The translations under genes and the position numbers were made by a program. Shown here in pieces: positions 33,012-61,163 of a DNA stretch of 64,000 nucleotides (within the stretch, counting starts at the first letter, position 1; each line of letters starts with the position of its first letter). Below the pieces are notes generated by a model. The model worked only from the letters and a program-made list of their open reading frames with translations. It did not search any database and was not told the origin of the DNA. Origin of the DNA: Chthoniobacteraceae bacterium (GTDB taxonomy: Bacteria; Verrucomicrobiota; Verrucomicrobiia; Chthoniobacterales; Chthoniobacteraceae); assembly GCA_028293625.1 (NCBI GenBank), contig JAQGOL010000030.1, positions 668,566 to 732,565 on the forward strand, read 5' to 3'.

Positions 33012-35066
33012 CTACGGAATGGGCGTTAGGGCTACCGGGAAGCTCAGTGTTGATGAGTCAAGATAGAATCCATTCGCGCGCTTTTGCTTTTGTAAAAAGA
33101 CGCCGGCAAACTTTCGGCGAGCTCCGGCGTTATCGCGGAAGCTGCCTGTAAAGAGACCTGTCTTCGGAGTAATAAGGAGGCTCAGCGTGCTTTGACTTAC
33201 AGGGGTTTCCTGAACGCGATTCCTCTCACTGACGATTGCCGTCGCGCGGATCAACCCGAGAGTGACATCCATCCCGCCCGCATTTGCCTCCAACGCACTT
33301 AACACACGGGCACCAGTGGCCGGCTTTATCCACCGGCTTCCAACAGTCGTCAGCCGAGTGATGAAGCCGCTATTCCAAGGAACATTTTTGATTGAGCCGG
33401 CTCGTGACCAAAGCAGATCGCCTTCTACTTCAGCATCGGGAAATGCCAGGGTTCCCGACAAGGAAGCTTTCCCCGCGAGGAGCGGCTCACTGAGGGTGAG
33501 TTGGTTTTCATCATTCAGCGGCACGGTAAATAGCAGTGGCGTCCCATCGGCCAGCTTGCCGGCGATGCGCGCCGCGCCTTGAAGATCGACGCTCATAAGG
33601 GCATATCCACTTCCCTGGGGAGGCAAGGGGAATAAAGCGGGGACTTCGGCCGGAAAAGCTATGGTATAGGCGCCGGTCAGCGGAGTAGGAGTTAGCTTGT
33701 TATAGACGGGCAGTTTTCGGCCGCCGAAAGTAAGGCTCGCGTTATTGGTTGTCAGACTCCCGCTCAGCGCGCCGGTCTGCAGGTCTTCACGCAGGCTTAT
33801 CTGCGCCGTATTTTGAGGAGCAGGCAGACCTGTCTTTACCGTCGCGGAGTAATATCCATGAAGATCGAACTTTCCCTTGAGTGCGATCTTTCGCCCGTTC
33901 AGGAGAAGCGAGCCACTGAAGGCGCCAAACTCATTGGCACTCAGGCGCCATGTCCCGTTTGGCTGCCAATTCATTCCGTTGGTGAAGACGCCATAGAAGG
34001 AACCAACCCCGTTCAGGAACGGAGAAACAATGAAGTTCGCCTGAATAGTCAGGCCATCGCGCATTACCACGGAAAGCGGATTGGCGGTGGACGCGACGTC
34101 ACCTGTCCATGAAGAAAAGACGTAGCCCGGCTTCGGCGTTGCCTGAATAAGAAGCTTGCTGCCGACTACCTGGGTTGTGCTCCCTCGATAAGCGACTGCA
34201 ACGGTCCCGCGCGAAGAGTCGCCGGTTGCGACCGACAATGTTCCAAATTCTTCCGTGGACGGAAGGAGTGGAGTGCCATATCCGATGTCCTGCAGGATCG
34301 CGAATTCCAGGTTCGAAAAGCGGGTCCGGGTTTGATAATGCAAAGCAGGATCCATGGTTAAGAAGGACGCTTCAAACTGAAGATCAGCTTCCAGGTGGGA
34401 ATCATCGTCGCTGAGCGGGACCGGTCCTCCATAAACGCTGAGCGCGTGACTGCCTATAAATAGCCCGGCGGCCGAAGTGTGGGCGGCAAAAGCGTTGACG
34501 CTCGCGTTAAATCCAAGCAGGTGGGCGATTTCGTGCTGGGCGCAGCTGAAGAAATCGGAGCTTTGGCTAAACGGTTCGACTGTCCGGGGATCGGGATCAA
34601 AATACCAGTCGTTGGTGGAATCAAAAGTGATACTGCCGCCGAGCGGCTCATAATGAGTGACCGAATCCTTCGAGTCGAACAGACTGAGCCATGCGGCACT
34701 GCCCGAAGCGGAGTAGCCGATGCCCTGCGCCTCGCCGGCCGTGATCCCTGGTAAATCGCGCGCCCCGACATAGATCGTCAGGATATTGGCGGCAATCGTT
34801 GGATTTGATAGGTTGACCGTCGCACCGGTCGCCGGATTGCTAAAAGCCACATCCCACAAATCCGATCCGCTTGGCGTGACCGGCAAAAGGGTGGTGGTGG
34901 TGAGCCGGCTGGTGAAAACGTTGGCCGCAGCTGTCAGGAGCGCCCTGCGCCCGACGTTGGGGCCGGAAAAAAATCCTGTGTCATACGAATAATCGAACTG
35001 AATGGTAAACGCGCCATGAGCAGTGATCGAGCATGCGGTCAATATCAGGAGGGTGCGTTTGATCAT
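33012..35066 (-). CDS. secreted metallopeptidase-like protein with verrucomicrobial C-terminal module
   Basis: The start at 35066 gives a signal peptide (MIKRTLLILTACSITAHGA) and 684 residues; an ATG at 35120 is in frame. HEIAHLLGF carries the HExxHxxG zinc-peptidase signature, preceded by FSQSSDFFSCAQ. In HExxHxxGxxH the third His position holds Ala, so zinc coordination may differ, as in the NF038122-type group, or be lost. Then an InlB-like unit (GYVFSSWTG) and a 350-residue C-terminal region shared in layout with the protein at 280-5274 (…TPKTGLFTGSF, FYLDSSTLS). A hairpin repeat lies about 70 bases upstream. Confidence 0.8.
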   Translation of the reverse strand: MIKRTLLILTACSITAHGAFTIQFDYSYDTGFFSGPNVGRRALLTAAANVFTSRLTTTTLLPVTPSGSDLWDVAFSNPATGATVNLSNPTIAANILTIYVGARDLPGITAGEAQGIGYSASGSAAWLSLFDSKDSVTHYEPLGGSITFDSTNDWYFDPDPRTVEPFSQSSDFFSCAQHEIAHLLGFNASVNAFAAHTSAAGLFIGSHALSVYGGPVPLSDDDSHLEADLQFEASFLTMDPALHYQTRTRFSNLEFAILQDIGYGTPLLPSTEEFGTLSVATGDSSRGTVAVAYRGSTTQVVGSKLLIQATPKPGYVFSSWTGDVASTANPLSVVMRDGLTIQANFIVSPFLNGVGSFYGVFTNGMNWQPNGTWRLSANEFGAFSGSLLLNGRKIALKGKFDLHGYYSATVKTGLPAPQNTAQISLREDLQTGALSGSLTTNNASLTFGGRKLPVYNKLTPTPLTGAYTIAFPAEVPALFPLPPQGSGYALMSVDLQGAARIAGKLADGTPLLFTVPLNDENQLTLSEPLLAGKASLSGTLAFPDAEVEGDLLWSRAGSIKNVPWNSGFITRLTTVGSRWIKPATGARVLSALEANAGGMDVTLGLIRATAIVSERNRVQETPVSQSTLSLLITPKTGLFTGSFRDNAGARRKFAGVFLQKQKRANGFYLDSSTLSFPVALTPIP

Positions 35067-35135: not shown

Positions 35136-35192
35136 CTCTTAATCGAAATCGTAATCTCCCTGTGTCCGGAGGATTAAGATTAAGATTAAGAG
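35136..35192. repeat. TTAATC/GATTAA hairpin element, copy A
   Basis: CTCTTAATC (35136-35144) pairs with GATTAAGAG (35184-35192); inner arms repeat TAATC and GATTAA imperfectly around a short CTGTGTCCGG centre. The same vocabulary and outer arms recur at 59691-59789. It lies between the GH75-like gene and the metallopeptidase-like gene. Confidence 0.75.
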
Positions 35193-35252: not shown

Positions 35253-36596
35253 CTAAGGAACGGGTAGCGGGGTGGCCGCCGGCGGCACGGGGACCGGCGT
35301 TGCGGGCGCCGCGGGGATGGGCGCAGCGGGTACGGGGGGCGTGGGGGCGGGTGGCGCCGGCGGCGGAGGGGGAAGCTTCGGTTTAATCAGGTCGGCCCAG
35401 GTAAAAAGGTCGCCGGTATAACCGCCTATCTCAGCCAGGAGCTGCGCGCAGCGGTCATGCCATTTGAGAAGATCGGGCGCATCGAAGGGCTTATCGGCGG
35501 AGCCGGGGAAGATTAGGTAGCTTACCTTAAGGTCGCTTACGGCCCGATTATTGGAATTCGAACGCGCATTCAGCTGCTGGCAGATGCGGGTAGAGCCTTC
35601 GCCCGATTTATACGCCGGACCAACATCGCCCACGATCGCCGGGTACAGCGTGCCGCCAAAGATCACCACGCAGTAGTCGCCCACTGATGGAGCGAAAGGT
35701 CCCTTGTTTTTCCCGAACATCGAGCCGGGCAGGACAATATAAGGATCAGTGGAAGCGACCAGATAACTGTATTTCCTAAGATCCGAAACCTCGGAGCGAA
35801 GCCGGTTTAGGGTTTCCTTTAACTCGCGGCTGCGTCCCGGCGTGGCGAGGGCAAGTTCCTGTTCGTATTGTTTGATCCGCACCTCGCGCGGAGTAGTGAA
35901 CGAGTTGGGCAGCTCGCTTTTTTTGCTCCATTTATAACTGGTGAACGGCTGGAAAGTAACTGAGGAGCCGTCTACTTCGGGGACGCGGTCGCTGTCAGAG
36001 CCGTCCTCGTCGACATCCATGTCGGACTGAATAAAGAGCGTGCGCCGCTTGGTAAGCGGGTCCTGAAGTTCAAGCACAGTCTCCGTGTCGAAGAAATTGT
36101 GCCGGGTAAGCAGGTTATCGAGCCGATTCAGGCTGGCTTGCAGATTGGCGACTTTGAGCCGGTAAAGATCGTCGTAAAAAGGCGAGATTTTGGCTGAGTC
36201 AAGCAACGCAGGCAGCCCTGGCAAAAGCGTGGGAAGCTGGGCGTTAAGGCTGACGATCTGGGTGAGATCCTTGTGCGGCTTTGGCACCTTTACCTTCACA
36301 CGCAATTCCGCGGCATAACTCGAAGGATCATTCCGGTCGGCAGTGGCGCTGGTGCCGACTTCAGTCTCCAAAAAGACTTTGTATTGCATGCCGTTGAAGA
36401 TCTTGCCCGTTTCGAGCCGCTTGTTTGGAACATAGGGCGGCGGGGGCGGAGTCGGAGCCGGTTCAGGCACAGGAACCGGCGTTGCCGGCACCAATAGCTT
36501 CTCCGGGGAAGGAAGTATCGGCACGGAGCGTGGACAGCTCTTGAGAATAAACGCCAGCGCCGCCGCCAGAACCATGAGGATAAAAAAACGCTTCAT
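35253..36596 (-). CDS. GH75-like chitosanase with proline-rich flanks
   Basis: A 447-residue exported protein (hydrophobic N-terminus, residues 4-18). Matches the fungal/bacterial GH75 chitosanase fold: SDMDVDEDG (191-199), YIVLPG (286-291), then GDYCVVIFGG and GDVGPAYKSGEGS, where D324 and E333 fit the family's catalytic Asp and Glu. Predicted to hydrolyse chitosan or related glucosamine polymers. Proline-rich tracts flank the domain (38-57 and about 405-447) and could span an envelope layer. A charged helical insert (about 238-275) splits the catalytic domain. KSC near residue 21 is a poor lipobox. Confidence 0.7.
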   Translation of the reverse strand: MKRFFILMVLAAALAFILKSCPRSVPILPSPEKLLVPATPVPVPEPAPTPPPPPYVPNKRLETGKIFNGMQYKVFLETEVGTSATADRNDPSSYAAELRVKVKVPKPHKDLTQIVSLNAQLPTLLPGLPALLDSAKISPFYDDLYRLKVANLQASLNRLDNLLTRHNFFDTETVLELQDPLTKRRTLFIQSDMDVDEDGSDSDRVPEVDGSSVTFQPFTSYKWSKKSELPNSFTTPREVRIKQYEQELALATPGRSRELKETLNRLRSEVSDLRKYSYLVASTDPYIVLPGSMFGKNKGPFAPSVGDYCVVIFGGTLYPAIVGDVGPAYKSGEGSTRICQQLNARSNSNNRAVSDLKVSYLIFPGSADKPFDAPDLLKWHDRCAQLLAEIGGYTGDLFTWADLIKPKLPPPPPAPPAPTPPVPAAPIPAAPATPVPVPPAATPLPVP

Positions 36597-58597: not shown

Positions 58598-59671
58598 ATG
58601 GAAGCTCCAACGACTACCACCCCAGGAATGACGCCAGCCCAACTCGGTTACCGGATGCCCGCCGAATGGGAACCGCATACCGCCACCTGGCTTTCCTGGC
58701 CACGCCGGGCCGGAATCAGCTTTCCAGGCGCCTACGACAAGGTGACACCGACGCTGGCCAAAATGGTCCACGCGCTGGCCGGCTCGGAGCTGGTGAACAT
58801 CAACGTTTGCGACGCGGCACATGAGGCCGACGTGCGCAAACAGCTCTCCAAGGCGCGGGCAAAAATGGATCACGTCACGTTTTTCCATATCCCGACCAAT
58901 GAACCGTGGTGCCGTGATCACGGCCCCATTTTCCTGACCCGGGATGAGACTCCAAAGCTTGCCATCCTTGACTGGGATTACAACGCCTGGGGCTGGAAAT
59001 ACCCGCCGTTCGACGACGATGACGTGGTGCCGACGATGATCGGCAACAAGCTCGATCTCCCGATTTATTCCCCCCAGATGGTTCTTGAAGGCGGCTCCAT
59101 TGATGTCAATGGCAGCGGGACACTTCTGACCACCCGTTCCTGCCTGCTCAATCCCAACCGGAATCCCGATCTAAACGAGAAGGAGATCGAACAACGGTTG
59201 CGCGATTTCCTGGGAGTCAAAAATATCCTCTGGCTCGGCGACGGCATCGAGGGCGATGACACCGATGGACACATCGATGACATCACGCGCTTTGTCGATC
59301 GCACCACGATCGTGACGGTTGTTGAAGAAGATTCCAACGACGCCAATTACGAGCCGCTTCGGGCCAATCTGGAGCTCTTAAAGACCATGGATGCCGAAGA
59401 CGGCGATCCGCTCCAGGTGCTCACTTTGCCGATGCCATCGAAAATCATGCGCGATGGCCAGCGGTTGCCCGCCAGCTACGCGAATTTTTATATCGGCAAC
59501 AAGGTGGTGCTCCTGCCGGTGTTCGCCGATTCGAATGATCGCTGGGCCATTGCGGTTTTGGAAAAGGTCTTCCCGACTCGGAAGGTGATCCCCATTGATT
59601 GCCGCGAACTGATCTGGGGCCTCGGCGCATTCCATTGCCTGACCCAGCAGCAACCAGCCATCCCGGTCTAG
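58598..59671 (+). CDS. aguA: agmatine deiminase
   Basis: Converts agmatine to N-carbamoylputrescine and ammonia. N-terminal RMPAEWEPHTATWLSWP, EPWCRDHGPIF, EGGSIDVNGSGTLL, DTDGHIDDITRF (catalytic His) and C-terminal GAFHCLTQQQPA (catalytic Cys347) are all intact. The gene overlaps nothing but follows aguB by 2 bases. No arginine decarboxylase lies in the window, so agmatine is supplied from elsewhere. Confidence 0.96.
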   Translation: MEAPTTTTPGMTPAQLGYRMPAEWEPHTATWLSWPRRAGISFPGAYDKVTPTLAKMVHALAGSELVNINVCDAAHEADVRKQLSKARAKMDHVTFFHIPTNEPWCRDHGPIFLTRDETPKLAILDWDYNAWGWKYPPFDDDDVVPTMIGNKLDLPIYSPQMVLEGGSIDVNGSGTLLTTRSCLLNPNRNPDLNEKEIEQRLRDFLGVKNILWLGDGIEGDDTDGHIDDITRFVDRTTIVTVVEEDSNDANYEPLRANLELLKTMDAEDGDPLQVLTLPMPSKIMRDGQRLPASYANFYIGNKVVLLPVFADSNDRWAIAVLEKVFPTRKVIPIDCRELIWGLGAFHCLTQQQPAIPV

Positions 59672-59690: not shown

Positions 59691-59789
59691 TCTTAATCTT
59701 AATCGTAATCTTAATCCCTCCGCCCTTCTGAGGTGCGACTTACCGCAACGGAAGGGAGATTAAGATTATGATTACGATTAAGATTAAGA
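59691..59789. repeat. TTAATC/GATTAA hairpin element, copy B
   Basis: A perfect 20-bp inverted pair, TCTTAATCTTAATCGTAATC (59691-59710) and its complement at 59770-59789, encloses a further pairing TTAATC/GATTAA (59711-59716, 59758-59763) and CCCTTC/GAAGGG (59723-59728, 59751-59756). Same vocabulary as copy A. Lies 19 bases after aguA and 94 before the C39-like gene. Confidence 0.85.
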
Positions 59790-59882: not shown

Positions 59883-61163
59883 ATGTTTCCCCGTTTATTT
59901 ACGTTGTTGTGCGCTGTTGCGTTTTCATGCTCGGCGTTTGCTGAAGCTCTCGACCCGATCCTTGCCGTCGACAAACTTTGGAGCCTGAAACAGGACGGGT
60001 TTCAGGCGGCCACCAAAGGACTCCCATTCCGATGGACTTCCAGTGCCCAGGATTCGGCACGGGCGGCTTCCACCGGGATGACCCTTTTTGAATTGCCCGT
60101 GTATGAAGTCATCGCGCGTTTTGATGCCGGACAGCTTAAGCTTATCACGGCGACATTTTATGCCCGGGGCGATGCGGGCGGCATTCCAAAGGAAAAATTC
60201 GACGCCCTGGTGGTAAGCGCCAGCGAGGCGATCACGAAATTTACCGGCACCAAATTTACGCCTCGCGGGAAGGACGCCACCAATGCGGTCCGGGCCGACG
60301 GGGTGACGTGGCAAAACACCATCGCGCATTACCTCTTGGAATACAGTTTTACCAGGGAAGTCAAAACGCGCGGCATTCCATTCCGGGCGGAGTTTGTACG
60401 GCTCGAAATCGGACCTCCGGAAGCTAAATTGAATCTTTTGGCAAGCGTCGCGGCCAAACCGAAGTTCACCGGCCCGACTCATCTTAAACGTGACACGGCA
60501 ACGGGCGACGTCTGGCTCTTTGATGTGCCGATGGTCGACCAAGGCCAGAAAGGGTACTGCGTGGTGGCATCAACGGAACGGGTGATGCGGTATTTCGGCA
60601 ACCCGGTGGATGCCAACGAACTTGCGCAGATTGCCAACAGCGACGCGGCGGCGGGCACCAGCCTGGATAGCATGAACAGCGCGCTAAAGAAGATCTCGTC
60701 CCGGTTTAAAGTCCGGGTGCGCACCCTTGAACAGCAGGACACCAAAGGCGTGCTTGGCATGATCAAAGACTACAATCGCGCGGCAAAACGGTTGCATGAA
60801 ACCGAGATCCCCGATCTTGGCATGCGCATGGATCTTGGTTCCATCTTCCATTCCATGAATTACGACGTGCTGAAGGAAGCGCGTACAAAAAACCCAGGCG
60901 ACCTGACCCGCTTCCAGCGTTCGGTGCAAACCCACATCGATCTCGGTATTCCCCTGCTCTGGTCTGTGCAGCTGGGCATGGCGCCCGAAGCCGGCATCCC
61001 GCAAAGCGCCGGCGGCCACATGCGCCTGATCATCGGCTACAACACCACCAAGAAAGAGATCCTTTACTCGGATTCCTGGGGCGCAGGCCACGAACTCAAA
61101 CGGATGCCCGCCGCCGACGCCTGGACGATTACGACGGGGCTGACTTCCGTTGAGCCGACCTGA
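59883..61163 (+). CDS. secreted C39-like peptidase
   Basis: A 426-residue exported protein (signal peptide MFPRLFTLLCAVAFSCSAFA). The C-terminal half matches peptidase family C39-like/papain-like folds: DQGQKGYCVVASTERVMRYFG with C226, GGHMRLIIGYN with H379, SDSWG with D397. Residues 21-210 form an unfamiliar domain (TLFELPVYEVIARFDAGQLKLITATFY). The catalytic Cys-His-Asp set looks intact, so a protease of unknown target. The TTAATC hairpin precedes it. Confidence 0.8.
   Translation: MFPRLFTLLCAVAFSCSAFAEALDPILAVDKLWSLKQDGFQAATKGLPFRWTSSAQDSARAASTGMTLFELPVYEVIARFDAGQLKLITATFYARGDAGGIPKEKFDALVVSASEAITKFTGTKFTPRGKDATNAVRADGVTWQNTIAHYLLEYSFTREVKTRGIPFRAEFVRLEIGPPEAKLNLLASVAAKPKFTGPTHLKRDTATGDVWLFDVPMVDQGQKGYCVVASTERVMRYFGNPVDANELAQIANSDAAAGTSLDSMNSALKKISSRFKVRVRTLEQQDTKGVLGMIKDYNRAAKRLHETEIPDLGMRMDLGSIFHSMNYDVLKEARTKNPGDLTRFQRSVQTHIDLGIPLLWSVQLGMAPEAGIPQSAGGHMRLIIGYNTTKKEILYSDSWGAGHELKRMPAADAWTITTGLTSVEPT

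Follow-up and report, generated by a model that had tools for sequence, protein, structure and literature searches.

Dispersed hairpins built from a degenerate hexamer in Chthoniobacteraceae and other bacteria: probable mobile DNA with REPIN/MITE-like behaviour

Two places in the window, by which we mean the whole analysed stretch of 64,000 nucleotides from a Chthoniobacteraceae bacterium, carry TTAATC repeats that face GATTAA repeats across a short centre. The question is what these inverted repeats are and whether they stand alone. The first-pass annotation described them as two related hairpins with common arms and differing centres, and proposed either a dispersed palindromic family of the REP/MITE kind or a regulatory RNA structure. 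Below we describe the hairpins, follow them through the genome and its relatives, and weigh the explanations for their spread.

Two hairpins and their family

Both hairpins are present as described and are far from chance. Element 1 (59691-59789; locus L062) has a core of 41 nt with four hexamers to its left and five to its right. On the forward strand, its left arm (59691-59716) is TC followed by (TTAATC)(TTAATC)(GTAATC)(TTAATC), its core (59717-59757) forms an inner hairpin of its own, and its right arm (59758-59789) is (GATTAA)(GATTAT)(GATTAC)(GATTAA)(GATTAA)GA. Element 2 (35136-35192; locus L061) is smaller, with three hexamers on each side of a 15-nt core. Its left arm (35136-35156, forward strand) is CTC followed by TTAATC GAAATC GTAATC, its core (35157-35171, same strand) is TCCCTGTGTCCGGAG, which has two mismatches to the core class found most often in the genome, and its right arm (35172-35192, same strand) is (GATTAA)(GATTAA)(GATTAA)GAG. 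With up to two mismatches, TCTTAATCTTAATC has 11 matches in the window against 0.14 expected, all within or bordering the two elements. The RNA folding z-scores on the two strands are -7.7 and -8.6 for element 1 and -4.1 and -4.9 for element 2, and for either element none of 200 shuffled sequences folds as well.

The proposal of a dispersed palindromic family is confirmed by the genome of the window (6.83 Mb, 43 contigs). The exact 14-mer TCTTAATCTTAATC occurs 41 times and three GATTAH units with at most two mismatches occur 137 times, in both cases against zero for the reversed control. The hairpin pattern is counted 108 times against zero for its reversed control, where a single hairpin may count several times. 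With a minimum of three units per cluster, the 49 regions taken around listed matches contain 47 clusters; three regions contain none. The 47 clusters are a lower bound; the family is larger, since three further listed hairpins lie outside these regions and the listed matches are a subset of those counted. Thus, a genome-wide search for inverted pairs finds many copies with conserved arms, not only the two of the window. Like REPINs, the hexamer elements are inverted doublets that form hairpins and are spread through extragenic space.

The general anatomy is a left arm of (NTAATC or NTACTC)n, a core and a right arm of (GATTAN or GAGTAN)n, i.e., tandem copies of the degenerate hexamer GA[T/G]TAN in opposite orientation on either side of a variable core. 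Among 44 elements of the window genome there are about three units per arm, and the median core is 21 nt. A broader form of the unit is GA[T/G][T/C/G]AN, and units of the forms GAGCAN and GATCAN are intermixed in other genomes. Within five mismatches, 10 of 42 cores in the window genome belong to the class CTCCGGGCACAGGGAG, where shuffles give 0.45, a control that flatters the class as it was picked by eye after seeing the data. The core of element 2, unlike that of element 1, falls in this class. Common flanks (blastn matches of about 130-190 bp) are seen at several of its loci.

The surroundings of the hairpins differ between genomes. In the window genome, L036, L046, L051, L060, L068 and L034 carry a dispersed repeat of about 130-190 bp with the hexamer hairpin at its centre, in both orientations. 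In MAGs of Desulfobacteraceae and Deltaproteobacteria (L134, L140, L146, L149, L164, L181) exchangeable modules flank the hairpin, either a ACGAAATA..TATTTC palindrome or a ..TTTTTACGGGCG module, in a mosaic like that of BIMEs; by eye, one Desulfobacteraceae genome combines the same hairpin with two flank modules. A copy in genome G026 (L126:1470-1600) extends outward as a long, near-perfect inverted repeat, similar to AGGTGGCAC..GTGCCACCT. In Chthoniobacter flavus a second dispersed repeat seems to be present at L101 and L092, readable by eye in several open reading frames as a PKLYLGTHLGAKL-like peptide.

If the stem itself were maintained, variable positions should covary across it. For 127 elements from 18 genomes, pairing between opposite arms was compared with that between arms drawn from two different elements of one genome; unit positions 1, 2 and 5 pair by construction of the search pattern. 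No positive covariation was found at the variable unit positions, bases 3 and 6. Complementarity at the sixth base is 0.477 in the window genome against 0.435 for mismatched arms (inner anchor, p 0.18), and 0.554 against 0.639 in C. flavus. With all genomes pooled it is 0.446 against 0.495, if anything below chance, and the Desulfobacterota part of this deficit may reflect copies of one founder. As the sixth base pairs no better than chance, it seems to be the unit that is conserved and not the base pairing; the arms seem alike because both are built from one unit, and not through a stem kept paired at each base. Outside the arms, the flanks pair only slightly above chance (permutation, 0.047 in the window genome and 0.023 in the others). 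Comparison of L180 with L195, which are related loci of planctomycetes, shows a difference of four whole units in the left arm and of one in the right. This gain or loss of entire units points to slippage within the arrays.

Distribution and placement between genes

Among 97 relatives, the exact 14-mer is present in 10 and the general hairpin pattern in 13, and both are absent from three congeners. The 14-mer has 174 matches in C. flavus, from the same family. For the general pattern, the 108 counts of the window genome stand beside 305 in C. flavus Ellin428, the highest among the 97, 45 in G026 and 23 in G037. The genome with 305 counts (G018) is assigned to C. flavus from three loci that are identical over 3101, 3101 and 2400 bases. 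In a sample of 387 genomes of the phylum, a two-unit hairpin occurs in 35, with the reversed control in one, and 17 have at least ten counts on one strand. A scan of named genomes gave at least 118 stretches, and among the matches listed are Verrucomicrobia, Lentisphaerae, Kiritimatiellales, Planctomycetota and Brocadiia as well as Desulfobacteraceae and relatives, Ignavibacteria, Bacteroidetes, SAR324 and others; the short matches in Spirabiliibacterium and Neisseriaceae may be chance. The hairpins are thus patchy, occurring in some bacteria of several phyla and absent from close relatives. Viral carriage was considered and set aside: 12 viral contigs matched, and on reading most of the matches look like chance in AT-rich coding DNA.

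Element 1 lies between two forward-strand genes, a PAD_porph or agmatine-deiminase-like gene (58598-59671), whose stop is 19 nt before the element, and a Peptidase_C39_2-like gene (59883-61163; Pfam E 4e-12). Element 2 lies between two genes of the reverse strand. Upstream on that strand is a GH75-like gene (35253-36596), with its stop 60 nt from the element, and downstream is the gene of an InlB B-repeat protein (33012-35066), whose Matrixin match (E 3e-4) is below Pfam's cut-off and whose start at 35066 was picked by eye where the ORF list has 35120. The GH75-like protein combines a domain of the fungal chitosanase type with a proline-rich tail. The first-pass annotation placed both hairpins in gaps before peptidase-like genes. 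Each does precede such a gene, if the sub-threshold Matrixin match is accepted, but each also follows another gene, and copies elsewhere adjoin genes of many kinds.

Gene calls made with a custom script, in which start codons are approximate, place one element of the window genome inside a called gene. The gaps with elements (n=38, with two elements counted twice) are 7 convergent, 24 tandem and 7 divergent, little different from element-free gaps (n=81) with 13, 53 and 15. In 32 of 43 distinct tandem gaps the upstream stop is closer to the element than the downstream start is, 17/22 in the window genome and 15/21 in others (18/24 and 15/21 before removing two window-genome elements that were counted twice). 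Further, 23 of 31 non-divergent entries of the window genome are at most 31 nt from a stop.

Comparison of syntenic gaps shows extra DNA at three sites, in each case with the hairpin directly behind a stop codon. At locus L107 of C. flavus, a gap of about 200 nt contains the element; the corresponding gap is 78 nt in G029 and 87 nt in G026, where both flanking genes are kept (80-85% identity). Here, the element sits behind the stop codon and before a terminator hairpin, which all three genomes retain. At L096 of C. flavus, the gap is 161 nt against 61 nt in G002. At the third site, the stop-to-ATG gap is 4-9 nt in G001-G003, while C. flavus has a short element (L106) and the window genome has about 350 nt, in which two arms stand far apart (L056). 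These two inserts look independent as they differ from each other. At L056 (1271-1562) about 200 nt separate the arms, which may enclose a long core or other DNA. The comparisons are between species and not strains, so that deletion in the relatives could in principle account for the difference, although two of the sites have concordant gaps in several relatives. For element 2 there is no comparable empty site in the congeners, which have about 66-67% identity and a different neighbour gene. No target-site duplication, as expected of MITEs of DDE transposons, was found around 44 elements of the window genome, where the longest flanking direct repeat averages 4.36 against 4.42 for mismatched pairs.

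Some gaps or genes are used repeatedly. L078 and L103 have the same exonuclease-like gene downstream and different upstream genes, L107 and L110 have the same upstream gene and different downstream genes, and L115 and L183 both lie before the same gene. Such shared positions in different genera argue for repeated insertion at preferred places between genes. The recurrence (L056/L106, L107/L110, L078/L103, L115/L183) could also be retention for a function.

Explanations for the spread of the hairpins

We suggest that the hexamer hairpins are short, non-autonomous, mobile DNA hairpins with REPIN/MITE-like behaviour, a reading to which we give a probability of about 0.6. The copies lie scattered between genes, have a patchy distribution among relatives and come with extra DNA at three syntenic sites; what they seem to conserve is the unit, and their arrays slip by whole units. 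Excision or transposition events were not observed. The mechanism could involve a trans-acting enzyme other than the known RAYT that recognises the hexamer units. It would read the hexamer on single-stranded, hairpin or duplex DNA, most likely on a structured or single-stranded form, and the unit would be the conserved thing that is read, because bases 3 and 6 show no covariation between the arms. The enzyme would copy or move the element into gaps at gene ends, with insertion or survival favoured just behind stop codons. The arrays may then gain and lose whole hexamers by slippage, while the core and outer flanks would diverge by lineage.

The main rival, which we consider unlikely but the most serious of the alternatives, is that a global or DNA-bending regulator, such as IHF/HU or some other protein that binds arrays, recognises the arrays as inverted pairs of sites, which would be dispersed because they serve the chromosome or the neighbouring genes. 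Conservation of the unit without covariation at position 6 fits this, as does the filling of the same gap in different genera, and the same architecture, paired sites of tandem 7/8-mers, is described in Geobacter metallireducens, where the function is itself a proposal (PMC2700814). However, zero copies in the congeners and in most of the family are hard to reconcile with a needed site, and so are the different, apparently independent inserts in one gap. A much less probable explanation is that the hairpins act as RNA, as transcription terminators or as 3'-end stabilisers of the mRNA of the preceding gene. The folds are very stable and the upstream stop is the nearer one in the 32 of 43 tandem cases, but by eye no U-tract or T-run follows the arms, divergent gaps are as frequent with elements (7/38) as without (15/81), and no Rfam family matches in the window. 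At L107 the canonical terminator follows the element and is also present in G029 and G026, which have no element. With no T-run, elements in divergent gaps and a native terminator beside the L107 element, an intrinsic terminator is rejected. The regulatory RNA structure of the first-pass annotation is not supported either, in view of the Rfam search of the window, the lack of any preference for gene orientation and the lack of covariation at variable unit positions.

Slightly less probable again is a neutral origin, in which slippage of hexamers and fold-back template switching at gene ends create the hairpins with no dedicated enzyme. The whole-unit indels between L180 and L195 and the weak pairing of the outer flanks would be expected from such a process. 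Yet GA[T/G]TAN is found in many phyla and is absent in sister species, which needs a shared cause, and the cores and flank modules that copies in one genome have in common indicate copying of a founder. The lowest probability goes to a REP/REPIN moved by a RAYT (TnpA-REP), the transposase that the first-pass annotation suggested looking for. RAYT genes are present and the elements behave in a REPIN-like way, but all 15 genomes tested have Y1/RAYT transposases, whether or not they have elements, and none of 12 RAYT loci, each the best match of its genome, has a hexamer array (0/12). On distribution and on the neighbourhood of these best matches, a RAYT is rejected as the partner. The tags known from REPs are not enriched: GTAG lies within 15 nt of the outer edge in 1/44 window-genome and 1/40 other elements, where shuffles give 7.4 and 6.1, and a terminal CGTC is found in 9/44 and 6/40 against 6.9 and 8.5 expected. 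The best RAYT of the window genome (148 aa from ATG; L091:1100-2100, contig C14, around 118494) is by eye flanked by a different palindrome around GGCACCCCTGCCGGGGTGC, which is probably its own REP. The REP/MITE-like character thus stands as far as behaviour is concerned (intergenic, multicopy, hairpin-forming, inserted), while the RAYT partner is not supported.

At the level of protein clusters that join at least four loci, a common neighbour gene is likewise rejected as the enzyme. The 205 element loci contain 3938 open frames, and no shared mobility-like neighbour was found in these clusters; the eight of them are all ordinary families (ABC, GFO/IDH, SDR, DUF1501, PSD1, carbamoyltransferase, 3-keto-disaccharide hydrolase and kinase). 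By eye, no transposase is seen among the genes between clustered copies.

Returning to mobile hairpins as the preferred reading, a wider and more tentative proposal is that they form a superfamily across PVC bacteria, Desulfobacterota, Bacteroidota/Ignavibacteria and SAR324, in which a putative, undescribed enzyme recognises the degenerate GA[T/G]TAN in place of a fixed terminus or a perfectly paired stem and puts new copies immediately after stop codons. If this is right, many genomes of several phyla would have a common mobile hairpin moved by an unnamed enzyme, with a recognition rule, a degenerate word in arrays, unlike that of REPINs and MITEs. Mobility can be tested in the named strain C. 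flavus Ellin428, which has the top count of the 97 genomes.

Comparison with known repeats

In the open-access literature searched, we found nothing on a GA[T/G]TAN repeat. Hairpin arms and intergenic tracts made from short degenerate tandem units are known from cyanobacteria, in the P6b repeats of the trnL intron and in STRRs. In contrast to the hexamer hairpins, these units have seven bases and lie partly inside an intron.

REPINs, or REP doublets, of Pseudomonas, E. coli and Nostoc are short inverted-repeat hairpins that are multicopy and extragenic, with a less conserved central spacer and with compensatory changes in the hairpin (PMC3116915). The hexamer hairpins resemble them in the short inverted repeat, the copy number, the extragenic position and the variable centre. 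They differ in having no RAYT link, no GTAG tag, arms of tandem degenerate hexamers, the same word across phyla and no compensatory changes at variable positions. REPs overall are described as lying mainly downstream of genes, and CGTC REPs, with stems of 8-9 bp and loops of 4-5 nt, as having no known dedicated transposase (PMC3733652). CGTC REPs and the hexamer hairpins are both palindromic; however, the edges of the latter have no enrichment of CGTC. In behaviour REPINs and CGTC REPs come closest to the hexamer hairpins, which are set apart from both because the tag and, for REPINs, the enzyme are lacking.

The closest architecture that we found is that of the predicted binding sites of a global regulator in G. 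metallireducens, compared here through their legends. Classes 1-3 are multicopy, opposite-strand pairs, at variable distance, of tandem 7/8-nt units; the class 1 unit, GTTGCTYN, is degenerate at its last base (PMC2700814). Inverted pairs, tandem units, variable distance and multiple copies are thus common to both systems, while GA[T/G]TAN differs in sequence and length from the Geobacter units GTTGCTYN, TCTCCGTS[Y] and MTYCTGA. The Geobacter sites are reported as unique to that genome and not identified in the sister G. sulfurreducens (PMC2700814). If the reading as mobile hairpins is right, the hexamer hairpins would link these paired tandem-unit sites to mobile palindromes, a link absent from the accessible part of the Geobacter paper. 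In action they are REPIN/MITE-like, and we place them beside REPINs and MITEs and not among them.
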